64,000 bases of DNA from Lactobacillus pasteurii DSM 23907 = CRBIP 24.76. GTDB lineage: Bacteria > Bacillota > Bacilli > Lactobacillales > Lactobacillaceae. The stretch spans positions 62,001 through 126,000 of the forward strand of contig NZ_CAKD01000001.1 of NCBI RefSeq assembly GCF_000297025.1. The letters run 5' to 3'. Of the stretch, positions 5,749-62,490 are shown piece by piece. The notes beneath the pieces were generated by a model that was given only the letters and a program-made list of their open reading frames with translations, searched no databases and was not told the DNA's origin. Position numbers and translations under genes: made by a program. Position 1 is the stretch's first letter; every line of letters starts with the position of its first letter.

Positions 5749-6396
5749 CTATTCATAATCCCCCACAAAATCGCCCATTTTTCCTTGTTCAATCTTGCCA
5801 TGATTCAAATAAAGATATTCCTTCATGAATCTTTTGGCTAAAGGCAAATCATGAGTCACGAATAAAACAGTCATTTGATGCTTTTGATTTAAATGGGTAA
5901 TCAATTGCATTAATTCTTCTTTAGCAACCGGATCCAAACTAGCTGTTGCTTCGTCCAAGATAATCATGTTTGGCTTGTCTAATAATGCTTGCGCTAGATA
6001 TGCTCTTTGTTTTTGACCACCGGAAGCTTCACCCATTCTGATATTTTGGATATCGGCTAAATGCACTTCTTCTAGTTCTTCTTGAATTGTTTGCTTTACC
6101 TGCTTATTTTTGAAAAATGGCGTATTCAAAGCTACGAAGGACTTGATTGACAGCGGATATTCCGAATCGATATTTCTAAATTGTGGCACATAGCCTAATT
6201 TGACATCATCTGAAAATTTAAAGCTGCCACCAGTTGGAATCAAGAGCTTCATCAAAATATTGATCAAAGTCGTCTTTCCTGTACCGTTTGGGCCAAGCAA
6301 GGCGGTCATTGAACCTGGTTCAAGTTTAAAGTTGATATCTCGAAAAATTTCTTTGTTGTCGAACTTCATCGTTAAATTTTTTACTTCTAGAATCAA
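5749..6396 (-). CDS. Zn/Mn-type ABC transporter ATP-binding protein
   Basis: 215 residues. The order of motifs is standard: Walker A GPNGTGKT at about 35-42, Q-loop YVPQF, signature ASGGQKQR, Walker B MIILDEAT and H-loop VTHDLP. The signature is ASGGQ rather than LSGGQ, as often seen in this metal family. It powers import of Zn2+ or Mn2+ with its operon partners. The start is a TTG at 6396 backed by a GGGGGCTGGAGAG ribosome region. No ATG is available nearby upstream of the conserved MILEVKNLTM start. The lipoprotein gene ends 20 bp upstream. Confidence 0.9.
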   Translation of the reverse strand: MILEVKNLTMKFDNKEIFRDINFKLEPGSMTALLGPNGTGKTTLINILMKLLIPTGGSFKFSDDVKLGYVPQFRNIDSEYPLSIKSFVALNTPFFKNKQVKQTIQEELEEVHLADIQNIRMGEASGGQKQRAYLAQALLDKPNMIILDEATASLDPVAKEELMQLITHLNQKHQMTVLFVTHDLPLAKRFMKEYLYLNHGKIEQGKMGDFVGDYE

Positions 6397-6416
6397 CTCT
6401 CCAGCCCCCTTTCTTG

Positions 6417-7304
6417 CTATTTATGCATCTTTGCAGCTGCTGCCAGATTTTGGTAATTTTGCTTCATCCAAGCCAAATAAGTCGTATTGTTTGGAATGGT
6501 TTCGCGCACGTTTAAAACTGGAATGTCATGTTCTTTGGCCAATTTAACAAAGCTTTTGACAGTTGAACTGCTTGCTTGAACATTGTTAACGAAGAAGGCA
6601 ATCTTTCTTTGCTTAATAGCCTTAGTCATTTGATTGATTACTTTAGCTGATGGGTCGGTTTCTTTTTCGATTGCTTCTTCAAATTCTTGGTTGCCAATCT
6701 TAATGCCAGCTTCTTTTAAGCCATAGTCAAAGACTGGCTCGCTGACAAACACTGGCTTGTTGCCTTTAGTATCGATACCTTGGGCAATTTGCTTAATTTC
6801 GTTAATCTTAGCTAAGTATTTTTGGCCTTGAGCTTCAAAATATGCTCGATGCTTTGGCTGAAGCTTGCTTAATTTCTTTACTAAGTAGTTAACGTACTTG
6901 TCTGGCATACTCAAATTGTACCAAATATGTGGATTGTCACCGGACTTTAAATGCAATAAGTCTTCGCCAACTAACAGTGGCTTCTTATTAACTGAGCTAG
7001 CTAGCTTATTCATCCAAGAATCGTAGCCTAAGCCGTTAGCCACAACTAGATCGGCTTGCGACAAAGTCTTGGCATCATTGCTAGTAGGCTCAAAGTCATG
7101 TGGATCAATGGCGCTATTGTTGATAATTGCGACCGCTGTACCATATTTTCCAACAATATTTTTGGCAATATCAGCATAAACATTAGTTGTAGTTACGACT
7201 GAAATTTTGCCATTACTTGAATTATTTTTAGTTTTGCCACAGGCAGCTAAAGTAAGGCTAATTGCTAGTAGCAATAACAGGGTAAAAATTCTCTTTTTCT
7301 TCAT
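6417..7304 (-). CDS. Metal-binding lipoprotein of the Zn/Mn ABC importer
   Basis: 295 residues. A signal peptide ends in the lipobox LTLAAC with Cys22, so the mature protein is lipid-anchored outside the membrane. It belongs to the cluster A-I (ZnuA/PsaA) solute-binding family. Probable metal ligands by position are His69 (DPHDFEPT), His126 (NPHIWYN), Glu189 (FVSEPVFDY) and Glu269 (NVRETI). A glutamate at the third position is like manganese binders such as PsaA, while zinc binders usually have histidine there. The fourth position is Glu rather than the Asp of PsaA. There is no His-rich loop, which also argues against a classical ZnuA. It is the first gene of the operon, under a TTGACA promoter and a PerR-like box. 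Confidence 0.9.
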   Translation of the reverse strand: MKKKRIFTLLLLLAISLTLAACGKTKNNSSNGKISVVTTTNVYADIAKNIVGKYGTAVAIINNSAIDPHDFEPTSNDAKTLSQADLVVANGLGYDSWMNKLASSVNKKPLLVGEDLLHLKSGDNPHIWYNLSMPDKYVNYLVKKLSKLQPKHRAYFEAQGQKYLAKINEIKQIAQGIDTKGNKPVFVSEPVFDYGLKEAGIKIGNQEFEEAIEKETDPSAKVINQMTKAIKQRKIAFFVNNVQASSSTVKSFVKLAKEHDIPVLNVRETIPNNTTYLAWMKQNYQNLAAAAKMHK

Positions 7305-36445: not shown

Positions 36446-36950
36446 TTAATTGTCCTGATTTAAAAATTTTCGATTCAACAATTTAATTGAAATAAAGCAG
36501 ATTAATGTCCAAATCAAACTCTTAGCAATACAAAATAATAAGCTAGGACTTAAAAAATTTGGGCTAGAAATCACATCCAATAGATCATTGACTGGAAATA
36601 AAATCGCCAGCTAAAATAAGCACTTCAATTGCAGAAACCACACCGGCAATTATTAGCTTGGGAAGCCAATATTTAGAAAACCTTGGTCTAATTGATAAAA
36701 TATCATCATAAATACCAATGTTCTGATCATAAACTGATGACGCATTAACAATTCCCATGCTCGTTGCAATGCCGGAAGTGGTAATTGTTCCTAGCAGAAT
36801 TCGGGAATAACTTTGATGAGAATCAAAAGCTATCAGCAAAAACATGATCAGAGAAATAAGTGGCAGGGCAAAATAATGCAGCAAAATAATTTGTAGACCA
36901 CTTAGATTATAAATTGAGCTGAGTACAACTCGATAGGTCGAAGGTTTCAA
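36446..36950 (-). pseudogene. ABC-2 permease remnant 2 (frameshifted)
   Basis: A frame beginning at TTG 36950 encodes four or so membrane helices (VVLSSIYNLSGLQIILLHYF...LLIAFDSHQSYSRILLGTITT) and stops at 36585. The next frame continues the same protein from about 36603 with AILFPVNDLLDVISSPNFL and ends at 36446 with LLNRKFLNQDN. A single frameshift near 36600-36612 therefore separates the two parts. There is no ATG at the start, only a TTG overlapping the upstream stop. It is part of a decayed three-gene transporter. Confidence 0.7.
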
Positions 36951-37641
36951 AAGATATTCAACCTTCCCTCTTTAAAAGCCCTTTTAATGACGATATTGGT
37001 CAACAATTTTGAAATGACAACAAACAACAAAACAATTAGTAAGTATGAAATCATAAAATCTCATCGAAAATTATGATGATAGATAATCCTAATTGGGAAA
37101 CTTAATGGGCTAAATAACCGAATTGGTTTGATAAAAGCAGAATTGGCAATAAAATTAATTCTTCGTATTCAAGAGCATTTCTACTCAAAATAAATAGTAG
37201 GCTAATAAAATAACTCAAAACTGTTGATGCAAACCAAAATAAGATAATACCTATTAATAATTGCAGATCGAAATAATCAACAGGAATATTTAAAATTTTA
37301 ACTTCTAATCCTGCAATCGGAAAAGAAATCAACCCATACAAGGCAGCTGGCGATAGGACGGAAATTAGCACTTTCACTGAAGAAAGACCAGAATTCAACA
37401 AATGGGCCAAGGTTCCCTGCCACTGCTAAAAACCTAAGGCTCCAGCACTAGTTGTACAAGAAGCCCACATCCCCATAATTCCAGCTATCAGCCACTCTTT
37501 TCCAGAATAGGACTGGTTGGTGAAATTTGCCAAATATTGGTATAGTAGCATTGAACTTGTTTCGATCAAAACTAAACTAACGAAATAAGAGTTTTTCACA
37601 TAGAGCTTCAGTTGAAACAAAATCATCCTCAATAGCTTCAT
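36947..37641 (-). pseudogene. ABC-2 permease remnant 1 (nonsense and frameshift)
   Basis: ATG 37641 with AGGGTG opens a frame of membrane helices (LLRMILFQLKLYVKNSYFVSLV). It is interrupted by TAG at 37426-37428 in the context GALGF-stop-QWQGTLAHLL. The same frame reads on to 37102 (LLILPILLL-like). The protein then appears to continue in another frame (SPLSFPIRIIYHH) through a TGA at 37061-37063, and ends KRAFKEGRLNIF at 36947. At least three lesions are therefore present. The original product was likely an ABC-2 type permease of about 230 residues. Confidence 0.75.
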
Positions 37642-37647
37642 CAATAA

Positions 37648-37989
37648 TCACCCTAACTTTCGCTTTAAAGTAGGTGCGATTGCTAGATATGCATCAGCTA
37701 AGGAAGCACTATCTGGTACTGCAGCATACTTTTTTACATCTGAAACAGAACCACGGTAATGTATTCTGCCATTACCAATTAAATATATACGATCAGCCGG
37801 GGTTTCAATATCTGTCATGTTGTGACTAGTAAGAACAATTGCTCGTCCACTTTCAGCTAATCTTTTAATCAACTTTCGGACTGCAATCACAGACTCAACG
37901 TCCAAGCCCACAGTTGGCTCATCCAGCATTAAGATTTGAGGTCGGTTAATGTATGCAATAAAAAAAGCTACCTTTATAGGTAACCGTTT
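37648..37989 (-). pseudogene. C-terminal fragment of an ABC ATPase
   Basis: The readable frame contains FFIAYINRPQILMLDEPTVGLD (Walker B), D-loop, and H-loop LTSHNMTDIE, ending LAIAPTLKRKLG. Walker A and a proper LSGGQ signature are absent. Reading upstream meets a TGA at 37990-37992, and before that lies the hrtA stop. The first two thirds of the gene have been deleted. The fragment is followed by the two broken permeases, so the whole transporter is dead. The family is the lantibiotic/bacteriocin-immunity-like ABC-2 group, by general resemblance only. Confidence 0.8.
37958..37984 (-). terminator. Terminator of the hrt operon
   Basis: Minus-strand GTTACC-TATAAA-GGTAGC followed by seven T, 40 bp behind the hrtA stop. 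It overlaps the 5' edge of the ATPase remnant. Confidence 0.65.
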
Positions 37990-46249: not shown

Positions 46250-46284
46250 AGAAAAAATCCCTAAGTGTTATAGCACTTAAGGAT
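46250..46284 (-). terminator. Terminator of the carrier/condensation gene
   Basis: Minus-strand ATCCTTAAGTG / CACTTAGGGAT (one G-U pair) then TTTTTTC, 26 bp behind the stop codon. Confidence 0.8.
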
Positions 46285-46309
46285 CTAGCTCTCTTAATTT
46301 TATTTTTAA

Positions 46310-47758
46310 TTAGCTATGCCGACTAGCTGTCGTAATAGTGACTATCTCATCACCAAGCTTAACTTTATATTCCTTCTTTCTCAACAATTGACCATAGGAA
46401 ATACAGTATAAAATACCATTTTTGCTAACCAGCGTAACGTAATTTGCCTTAAACGGTAACCGCAAAATTTCTGCTATAATTGCATCCACGTCTTCAACTT
46501 CACCAAGATAATTTGGTGAAATATTCATACTTTTCCACTTCTTATCTAATTCAGGTAAGTATTGCAAATTCTTACCTACAGCGTTAAAAATGCAATAACG
46601 ATAATCTATTCCCTTTGTATAAATATTTAGCCAATCTTTATAGCTATTGGCAAAATCAGTAAAACTATCCTGCTTGTTAACCTGCCAAGGCAGAGTAGCA
46701 TGAACATCACCAATAACATTATTAGCATCAAATTTGTCAAAACTTCTAATATTCAAGGCAATTTTACCAGTGATCTTATGCATCTTATGATCTTGCATCA
46801 TAGCTTGTGAAAGCAGATAGATTCCTTGTGTATATACCTGATCTGTTGTCTTAGCAGAGCAAGCAAATTTGCTAATGTATACATAGGTATCCTTTTTCGT
46901 CAACTGCAAGCTTTGCTCAGTCTCAGAAATTAAACTAATTGCCTTTTTTACATCTGTATTTTGATTAGTTTCGCGTATAAAATCCATGAAATCAGCATAT
47001 GAACTCGGTTTGATTTGGTCAATGGATAAATTTTGCTGATATAAGTCAACAAATAGCTGTTTGAACTTGTTAGATGACGATGCATCCAGCGTGTGATGTG
47101 AAAATACGATCTCCAACTGGCATCTATTTAGGTTAAAGATTAAACAATATATTGGTCTGCCTTGTTTAGAATACATCACTTGCTCTAAATTATCATTAGA
47201 GAACCCATTCAATGAAACAAAAGAAATCGGATAAACATTTTTTGCTTTTTTAAAATATAGTCTATCTTGTTCATCTCTAAACCAAGTAAAAGTCAGCAAA
47301 TCGATTTTAGTAGTCAAATCTACAAAAATCTTTTTAATCTTTTCTATTTCTTGGTAGTTTATTGTTGGCATAGCTATGCACAAACGATCAAATGAGGTTT
47401 TTCCCTGCAAAAATAAGCTTTGCTGAGTAGATGATGCTGTAATCTTATATTGTTCATATTGACTTTCAAAATCATCAAATAGCATCTTAAAATTCATCAA
47501 TTCTGCTTCAATAGTTTGTTGATCTATTGAAGAATCAACCGTTTTTGACCACTTTTTATGTTTGATAAAATCAGCCAAACGTTTAGTTGTAGTTAATAAT
47601 GCTAATTGTTCATCATTAATATGTATAGTAAAAGCATTTTCTACTTCAATGATAAAACGAACTAAATCAAGAGAATCCAGTTGTGCAATCTCATTGACAT
47701 GATACTTTGTCAAAAGATTTCTAAGTTTATCGAAAATACCTTCATCACTTTTTCTCAT
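46310..47758 (-). CDS. Acyl/peptidyl carrier domain fused to an NRPS-type condensation domain
   Basis: 482 residues. Residues 1-70 look like a carrier protein: KYHVNEIAQLDSLDLVRFIIEVENAF, with Ser29 in the DSL phosphopantetheine site and a helix IHINDEQLALL after it. Residues about 110-470 look like a condensation/acyltransferase domain: SHHTLDASS has the HxxxD core (His221, Asp225). ALNIRSFDKF..VIGDVHATLPW fits the NxR and latch regions, and ISPNYLGEV fits the late core motif. No adenylation or thioesterase domain is present. ATG 47758 overlaps the stop of a short upstream frame (ATGA) and lacks a clear ribosome site. The region is AT-richer than its neighbours, suggesting transfer. Substrate and product are unknown. 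Confidence 0.7.
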   Translation of the reverse strand: MRKSDEGIFDKLRNLLTKYHVNEIAQLDSLDLVRFIIEVENAFTIHINDEQLALLTTTKRLADFIKHKKWSKTVDSSIDQQTIEAELMNFKMLFDDFESQYEQYKITASSTQQSLFLQGKTSFDRLCIAMPTINYQEIEKIKKIFVDLTTKIDLLTFTWFRDEQDRLYFKKAKNVYPISFVSLNGFSNDNLEQVMYSKQGRPIYCLIFNLNRCQLEIVFSHHTLDASSSNKFKQLFVDLYQQNLSIDQIKPSSYADFMDFIRETNQNTDVKKAISLISETEQSLQLTKKDTYVYISKFACSAKTTDQVYTQGIYLLSQAMMQDHKMHKITGKIALNIRSFDKFDANNVIGDVHATLPWQVNKQDSFTDFANSYKDWLNIYTKGIDYRYCIFNAVGKNLQYLPELDKKWKSMNISPNYLGEVEDVDAIIAEILRLPFKANYVTLVSKNGILYCISYGQLLRKKEYKVKLGDEIVTITTASRHS

Positions 47759-47787
47759 TCAGTCATTATTTTGGCAATTCCAATCAT

Positions 47788-48051
47788 TTTATTTGATTTC
47801 TTTTGTCGATCTTTAACATTCAATTTATGACCTTTGTTCAAACAAATACTGACCTAAATTACATCGGTAGAGTCTTTGGCATTATTTTTTCAGTTGCCAT
47901 CTTATTCATGCCGTTTGGTACTTTCTTCTTCCAACGGATCTTTAATTTGAAGAATCCATTCAATTATTCAATTATTGGTCTTGTTCTGATCACTGTATCA
48001 CTAGTTACACTACTTTTAAATATTGCTCTTTCAGCTACTACTAAAGATTAA
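47788..48051 (+). pseudogene. C-terminal fragment of an MFS transporter
   Basis: The plus frame FNIQFMTFVQTNTDLNYIGRVFGIIFSVAILFMPFGTFFFQRIF... ends after one more helix at 48051. The QT..D...GRVFG motif and the two following helices match the last third of MFS efflux proteins of the MefA-like type. The rest is absent: upstream the sequence belongs to the oppositely oriented carrier/condensation gene. A TGA lies in frame near 47793, so no start is obvious. It is a truncated remnant marking a rearrangement junction around 47.76-47.80 kb. Confidence 0.7.
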
Positions 48052-48121: not shown

Positions 48122-48150
48122 AAAAAAGCGACTCAAACGAGTCGCTTTTT
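48122..48150. terminator. pepN terminator
   Basis: AAAAAGCGACTC / GAGTCGCTTTTT perfect stem with AAAC loop, 9 bp behind the pepN stop. Confidence 0.92.
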
Positions 48151-48158
48151 CTGATACA

Positions 48159-60230: not shown

Positions 60231-62490
60231 TGATTGTTTCACCTTCCTTAAGTTCTACTTCCTTACCGCTTACTAGAACTGGTAAGTTTTCACCCTTGAT
60301 CAAAGTCAACTTGCTGCCAGCTTGATCAACTTCTACTTGGATCAAACGATCGCGGTAGTTAATCTTAAAGCTGTACTTATTCCAGTCATCAGGAATAAAT
60401 GGCTTGAAGCTCAATTGGTCGTTGTTGTAACGCATTCCAGCAAAACCTTGAACGATTGCCAACCATGAACCACTCATAGAAGTGATATGCAAGCCATCAA
60501 CAGTATCGTTATTGTAGTTGTCAAGGTCAAGACGAGCTGTTCTTTGGTACAATTCAACAGCCTTTTCCTTCTTGCCAAGTTCTGCTGCCAAGATTGAGTG
60601 AATACATGGAGAAAGTGAACTTTCGTGAACTGTCAATGGTTCGTAGAAGTCGAAGTTCTTTTCCTTTTGTTCCATAGTGTATTCATCATTCAAGAAGTAG
60701 ATACCTTGCAAAACATCAGCTTGCTTGATAAATGGTGATCTCAAGATCTTGTCCCATGACCAGTGTTGGTTAATTGGACGTTGACCTTCAGGAATTGAGC
60801 TTACTGGACGAATGTCTTTGTCTAAGAAGTCATCTTGTTGCAAGAAGATTCCTAAGTTCTTGTCTTCGCCCAAGTACATGTTGTCAACAATGTCTTGCCA
60901 CTTAGCCTTTTCTTCTTCAGTTACGTTTACTCTCTTTTGAGCTTCTTCAGTAGCCTTAGGCAAACGTTCCAAAGTGTACTTGATCAACCATCTTGCCATG
61001 GTGTTAGTGAACCAGTTGTTGTTGACGTTGTTTTCGTATTCATTTGGACCAGTTACGCCGTGAATTACGTACTTGTTGCGCCACTTAGAGAAGTGAACGC
61101 GGTCTGCCCAAAAGCGTGCAGTTCCAACCAAGACGTCCATACCTTCATCTTTGACGTAAGATTCATCACCAGTGTAGTTAGTGTATTGGTAGATGGCAAA
61201 TGGGATATCTGCGTTACGGTGAATTTCTTCAAAAGTAATTTCCCATTCGTTGTGGCATTCAACACCAGTGAAAGTTACCATTGGGAACAATGCACCTGCT
61301 AAGCCCTGTTGCTTAGCGTTGTGGTAAGCACCTTCCAATTGGTCGTGACGGTATTGAAGCAAAGCCTTAGTTACTTCTGGCTTAGTGATGCCTAAGTACA
61401 TTGGAACAATGTAAGCTTCTGTATCCCAGTAAGTTGCACCGCCGTACTTTTCACCAGTAAAGCCCTTAGGGCCAACGTTAAGTCTTTCGTCTTCGCCGTA
61501 GTAAGTCATGAAGAGTTGCAAGATGTTGAAGCGGATACCTTGTTGAGCAGCTTCGTCACCTGCGATTACTACATCACTCATGTCCCAACGCTTTTGCCAT
61601 GCTGCAGTATGGTCTGCCAAGTTTTCTTCAAAAGTCTTGCTTTGCAATTGAGCCATCAATTCTGAAGCCTTAGCCTTTTGATCTTCATCTGCTACATCGC
61701 GGCTAGTAACAACAATTACGTCCTTTTCAACTTCGTAGCTTTCGCCTTCTGCTAAGTGGATTGCAAAAGTTTCTGCTAATTTTGCTTCTTGGCTAGCTAC
61801 TTCAGTAGTAACTGCTTGACCTTCATGACGCAAGCTTTCCTTAAGCAAAACTGTAAATTGTGGAACGCCAAAGTTGTTTTCCTTAGTCTTGACTTGGATA
61901 GTTCTTGCTTCTTGATCTTCTTCAATTGGCAGCCAGAAGTATTCATCGTAGTTACTGTCTTCGTTGACAACCTTGCCATCTAAAGTAGATTTGTATTCGA
62001 TGTGTGCTTCACCTGAAAGAACAGTGGCCTTAACCTTGATTAAAGCTGCTTCTTTCAAAGTAATATGAAGGAATCTTTCAAATTCAAATTTTACTTTGAC
62101 ATCTTTGCCTTCATAAATGAAGCTTCTAGTCAACAAACCTTGGTGCATATCAAGTGACAATTCAAAGTCGCTGAAGTTAACCTTAGCTAAGTCTAACTTT
62201 TCGTCATTGATTGTGATTTCCAAACCAATAAAGCTTGGGGCGTTGATACTTTTACCAAAGTATTCTGGATAACCATTCTTCCACCAACCAACACGAGTCT
62301 TGTCAGGGAACCAAACACCTGCTAGGTAAGTTCCTTGAAGGCTGTCGCCTGAGTAGCCTTCTTCGAAGTTTCCTCTAAGACCCATATAGTCGTTACCAAT
62401 TGCAGTCATACTCTCTTGCAATCGTTTGTCTTCTTCTTTAAATTGATGAGTTACAACCCGCCAAGGGTCGATTTCAAAAATTCGTTTCAT
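60223..62490 (-). CDS. mapA: Maltose phosphorylase (GH65)
   Basis: 755 residues from ATG 62490 ([17 protein letters not shown]), with GGAG 12 nt upstream; two earlier ATGs have no ribosome site. It splits cytoplasmic maltose with phosphate into glucose and beta-glucose-1-phosphate. The GH65 catalytic acid lies in [18 protein letters not shown]. The phosphate-binding and barrel segments THWDT-like [10 protein letters not shown] and FHESSL-like [12 protein letters not shown] are present. It is the first gene of the mapA-pgmB-msmK-malEFG operon. Confidence 0.95.

Follow-up and report, generated by a model that had tools for sequence, protein, structure and literature searches.

A carrier-condensation reading frame of Lactobacillus pasteurii as the probable remnant of a single-module NRPS gene

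The 482-residue frame and its two domains

The window, meaning the whole 64,000-nucleotide stretch analysed (positions 62,001 to 126,000 of contig NZ_CAKD01000001.1 of Lactobacillus pasteurii DSM 23907), harbors on its minus strand an open reading frame of 482 codons running from ATG to stop. It lies at a pepN/dtpT-like site, next to the end of a gene of the MFS exporter type. The features of the locus are as follows.

46310 to 47758, minus strand: 482-residue ORF, read as the 3' half (carrier plus condensation-type domain) of an A-PCP-C NRPS gene
47756 to 47758, minus strand: ATG of this ORF, antisense to a His codon (CAT) in the MFS gene
47672 to 47674, minus strand: Ser29 codon, expected phosphopantetheine site (DSL), identical in 14 of 14 aligned proteins
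47084 to 47098, minus strand: His221-x-x-x-Asp225, condensation active-site motif, both residues identical in 14 of 14 and aligned with the HxxxD of PF00668-positive proteins
47746 to 47753, no strand assigned: deletion junction
47753 to 48051, plus strand: MFS exporter stump of some 100 C-terminal codons, lacking 1 nt (intact frame part 47803 to 48051, 82 residues)
48122 to 48151, minus strand: terminator-like hairpin and T-run separating pepN from the remnant, read in the sequence and folded, missed by the pattern scan
46255 to 46286, minus strand: terminator-like hairpin just downstream of the remnant, from the pattern scan

Matches to carrier models cover residues ~16 to 69 of the ORF, all of them under the curated cut-offs. 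The window carrier matches PF00550 with E = 0.0012 and the best NCBIfam ACP model with 1.5e-7, both sub-cut-off, and PF00550 is found at E <= 1 in nine of nine aligned family members. Searched against solved structures, the window protein gave 37 matches, 36 to carrier proteins and one to an unrelated avirulence protein. Asp28-Ser29-Leu30, His221 and Asp225 are identical in all 14 aligned proteins, ~20%-identical ones among them; the conservation of Ser29, His221 and Asp225 had been proposed beforehand as a check. This set comprises the window protein and 13 others (G057 as its C-terminal frame only), and leaves out G056, which has an internal TAG, the partial match G009:C5, and the partial or distant G017, G155, G197, G459, G476 and G748.

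The second His and the Asp of the HHxxxDG motif are conserved in all 14 proteins; the first His occurs in none of them (S, N, T or D instead), and A, Q or K stands in place of the Gly. The later Ser of xHxxxDxxS is kept in 13 of 14. No PF00668 match was reported for the window protein or across its genome. Three of nine aligned members match PF00668, with a best E of 3.5e-4 that is below the cut-off, and three single-relative PF00668 reports were likewise under the Pfam cut-off. A profile-profile comparison of the family with 14 PF00668-positive lactobacillar proteins gave a pairwise E of 2.4e-4 and a probability of 44% over 236 columns, with HxxxD and NIR in register, and the reversed control gave E 0.34. 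A plain profile search of the same 14 proteins placed six past the HMMER inclusion threshold and eight short of it. Among the 60 listed of 124 PDB matches of profile A1, all carrier proteins or mitochondrial carrier subunits, no condensation domain occurs. AlphaFold2, run from two sequences (window and L. gigeriorum), gave a mean pLDDT of 35 and was uninformative on the fold. The original prediction of a 482-residue ORF with a carrier (Ser29 in DSL) followed by a condensation-type domain is thus confirmed in its coordinates, and both domains appear to be present, the condensation-type one with moderate, not decisive, support. Judged by its sequence, the latter domain is divergent from PF00668.

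As also predicted, no A, KS or TE domain was seen in the window when its ORF list was read by eye, some of the ORFs being scanned in addition. Elsewhere in the window, three short minus-strand ORFs (36585-36950, 37102-37410 and 37648-37929) resemble, by eye, fragments of the ATPase and permease of an ABC transporter in decay; a sub-cut-off AAA match in the third was all that Pfam reported for them.

Full-length relatives and the deletion junction

We performed a search for relatives of the ORF in 75 Lactobacillus genomes, the window's own included, at E <= 0.001, and ten of them contain a match. Seven places hold close relatives (42-100% identity). The window frame has 482 residues and the other six have 958-972, at 42-78% identity to the window. 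One of the six, in G056, is interrupted by a TAG. Among the close relatives of this search, only the window frame is short. PF00501 and a carrier were matched in five of five full-length relatives scanned, the adenylation domain preceding the carrier, and among NCBIfam models TIGR01733 scored best, though under its cut-off, in all four relatives scanned. By tblastn, the window ORF aligns to residues 488-957 of the 960-residue protein of genome G024.

The closest comparison is provided by L. gigeriorum, which carries at the same pepN/dtpT-like site an orthologue of 956 residues (L001:8567-11437), 78% identical in protein sequence over the carrier-condensation part, beside a divergent MFS exporter gene. 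Unlike the window ORF, the L. gigeriorum gene has an adenylation domain, and its MFS neighbour (L001:7144-8375) is present but split over two frames. The window site keeps PCP-C and about the last 100 codons of the divergent exporter. NRPS homology spans 46310 to ~47746 (L001 10001) and MFS homology begins at ~47753 (L001 ~7447), so that about 2.55 kb of the L. gigeriorum arrangement is absent from the window. Both genes are cut at this one junction of a few bases, at which the ~20% divergence between the window and L. gigeriorum obscures any microhomology. Relative to the window, L. gigeriorum has in addition an extra segment of ~1.2 kb beside its MFS gene (L001 ~5958-7144).

The MFS protein of G024 was searched at eight loci. 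A full or near-full MFS gene is found at four of them (L001, L014, L018 and L043), and the window has the stump; no match was obtained at L015, L016 and L017, where the NRPS genes lie near contig ends. A full-length 12-helix exporter (TIGR00900-like) is absent from the window, which holds ~100 frameshifted C-terminal codons. The intact G024 relative matches TIGR00900 at 5e-47, below its cut-off.

The small carrier-then-condensation architecture, originally considered rare, is therefore a short form produced by deletion of the adenylation domain. The ancestral state would have been an A-PCP-C gene (~956 residues when intact) divergent from an MFS exporter gene. One deletion would have taken the entire adenylation domain, the intergenic region between the two genes and roughly three quarters of the exporter gene, with the open 482-residue frame as its leftover. 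That the short form is instead ancestral, the adenylation domain having been gained by fusion in the relatives, is hardly credible. Nothing was found in favour of it, relatives as distant as ~20% identity still have A and carrier domains, and the exporter is cut at the same joint, its antisense strand providing the ATG; the chimeric junction contradicts it.

The genome (1.9 Mb) has single matches to PF00501 and PF01648 and none to PF00668. The order and sizes of the genes around the sole PF00501 gene suggest a dltABCD-like operon. Searched against this genome, the A domain of L. gigeriorum finds the dlt-like ligase only (32%), and the MFS protein finds the stump only. The lost A domain and MFS part are thus absent elsewhere in the genome, and an NRPS-module adenylation domain is missing from the window ORF and, the dlt-like ligase aside, from the genome. 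An assembly error, with the strain really carrying full A-PCP-C and MFS genes, might be imagined in a draft of 30 contigs. It is nevertheless very improbable, as the junction is deep within a contig of 162,943 bases, the missing parts do not turn up at any other place in the assembly, whose completeness is rated at 99.7%, and the MFS stump has a frameshift of its own.

The original prediction saw no PPTase in the window; the one PF01648 match lies elsewhere in the genome. Exactly one such match was found in 12 of the 12 genomes checked, ten of which, the window's included, carry the A-PCP-C family. With a single match per genome, AcpS presumably charges the carrier in the intact enzymes, and the ACP-like DSL sequence of this carrier would fit such a partner.

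Expression signals, selection and age

The CAT codon whose reverse complement serves as ATG is found in the window and in all three MFS relatives aligned. The longest exact Shine-Dalgarno match before the window ATG is 3 nt. The NRPS starts of L001 and L014 are preceded by AGGTGA and AGGTGAT, respectively, and that of L018 by a 4-nt exact match only (L016 was not counted). A promoter-like site with 11 of 12 matches lies at 48187-48158, on the same strand as the ORF and upstream of the hairpin behind pepN; promoter-like sites in the region number 11, versus 11.2 in shuffles, and are thus not in excess. The start codon being fortuitous, the window ORF is probably not, or barely, translated.

Between the window and L. 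gigeriorum, dS is ~1.09 and dN ~0.12. Codons were compared over 478 positions in the window, L001, G024, G022 and G009. With changes polarised by G024, the window branch has 24 replacement and 38 silent changes and the L. gigeriorum branch 32 and 28 (Fisher p = 0.15), and a further 48 amino-acid and 26 silent differences are not assignable to a branch. Three outgroups are in agreement at 139 columns; the window differs from them at 12 of these and L. gigeriorum at 13. Replacements are thus not in excess on the window branch, with no sign of relaxed constraint, and this is the main evidence against a relic. The frame open over 482 codons, the kept Ser29, His221 and Asp225, and the terminator-like hairpin behind the frame point the same way. 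With an intact frame and no replacement excess, the deletion must have come late compared with the species split, or else selection still acts on the stump. We prefer a recent deletion, because the start signals are missing and the exporter is broken.

The open frame, the conserved active-site residues and the lack of excess replacements would be accounted for if the stump were still expressed and acted on its own as a carrier-condensation enzyme, either charged in trans by another ligase, perhaps the dlt-like one, or loaded with an acyl group. Such an enzyme could also find a precedent in fungal AneB, of which, according to the available text of PMC10720950, a T-C fragment supplied with an aminoacyl-SNAC still yields ester. 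We consider such an enzyme unlikely given a fortuitous ATG without Shine-Dalgarno, an intergenic region that is gone, an exporter that is destroyed and a genome without any other NRPS-type adenylation gene. The substrate loading in trans originally suggested is likewise unsupported, since the short form goes back to a deletion of the adenylation domain. It is quite improbable, in particular, that the deletion made a minimal carrier-condensation protein that is still produced and is charged in trans by an unrelated ligase, for instance that of the dlt-like operon; if so, it would be a natural NRPS that shed its adenylation domain and borrowed its charging from cell-wall metabolism.

We therefore read the window ORF as very probably the 3' half of a single-module NRPS gene that has been degraded and was once paired with a divergent MFS exporter gene. 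With its front half and most of the exporter deleted, it is most likely a dead remnant, and the earlier guess of an orphan or relic holds in the form of a 5'-truncated NRPS gene. The apparent two-domain enzyme then illustrates how annotation can be misled by a deletion scar that happens to have a start codon. Given the split MFS gene of L. gigeriorum and the TAG that interrupts the G056 NRPS frame (L015:14302-17193), loss of parts of the locus may recur, though sequencing errors in the draft genomes may also be the cause.

The intact family and comparison with known systems

The intact A-PCP-C family is a better lead than the window relic, of moderate interest. At E <= 1e-8, profile A1 has matches in 9 of 397 Lactobacillaceae genomes and in 6 of 395 order-level genomes, two sets that overlap, and some of the matches are partial. 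The family is thus sporadic. No relative of the window ORF was found in a scan of viral contigs. Among the papers listed in literature searches, no title or displayed abstract opening describes the Lactobacillus family, which does not prove it unpublished. The adenylation pocket letters, at the positions of GrsA, are DVTSMALVYK in L. gigeriorum, G024 and G009, and DVTSMALIYK in G035 and G022. They match no specificity that we can name, and we therefore claim no substrate.

In G024 (by Pfam) and G095 (by eye), the genes before the NRPS gene encode a family-2 glycosyltransferase and a P-loop kinase. In G022 a glycosyltransferase lies at the contig start, and G009 has only a glycosyltransferase tail. 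No glycosyltransferase or kinase remnant was found near the L. gigeriorum and window genes at E <= 0.01. At L014:8411-14610 and L043:6811-12898, the intact NRPS gene together with the glycosyltransferase, the kinase and the MFS gene may form a small biosynthetic cluster. Distant (~20%) A-PCP-C genes at L020:7384-13649 and L021:550-6816 are accompanied by an MFS gene, a PLP-dependent enzyme (PF00291 in L020), a 394-residue protein and, by eye, a helix-turn-helix regulator. Genome G035 has both this distant type and the window's type (L018). In another family of the order, an A-PCP-C gene (L044:1284-6569) is followed by an ATP-grasp ligase-like gene and, by eye, an MFS-like one.

Judging from its core motifs, the A domain of an intact enzyme would adenylate an alpha-amino acid, which would then be loaded onto the carrier through the phosphopantetheine on its Ser; AcpS, the only PPTase found, would attach this group. 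The C-terminal condensation domain might, via its His and Asp and as in fungal AneB, let a free amine or alcohol attack the thioester, so that the product would be formed and released without a thioesterase and could be exported by the MFS protein. Intact family members may thus make small exported amino-acid conjugates.

The HxxxD and NIR regions of the PF00668 condensation family are those aligned with the Lactobacillus family above. A likeness to DltA and DltC is seen in the ACP-like carrier and in the A domains of the intact relatives, for which DltA models give the next-best score or close to it. In Dlt, unlike in the A-PCP-C family, ligase and carrier are separate and no condensation domain follows. 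Fungal AneB and ThmA are, as far as the available text of PMC10720950 describes them, single-module A-T-C NRPSs without a thioesterase, and in the QHxxxDxxS motif of AneB the His and Asp are needed and the first position is dispensable. The window copy, unlike these enzymes, has no A domain, and the likeness to them is one of domain order and motif. On the same source, the Lactobacillus family resembles AneB and ThmA in its A-PCP-C order, in having no thioesterase and in an xHxxxDxxS motif with a non-His first position. By analogy, the intact Lactobacillus enzyme would couple a free amine or alcohol with an activated amino acid.
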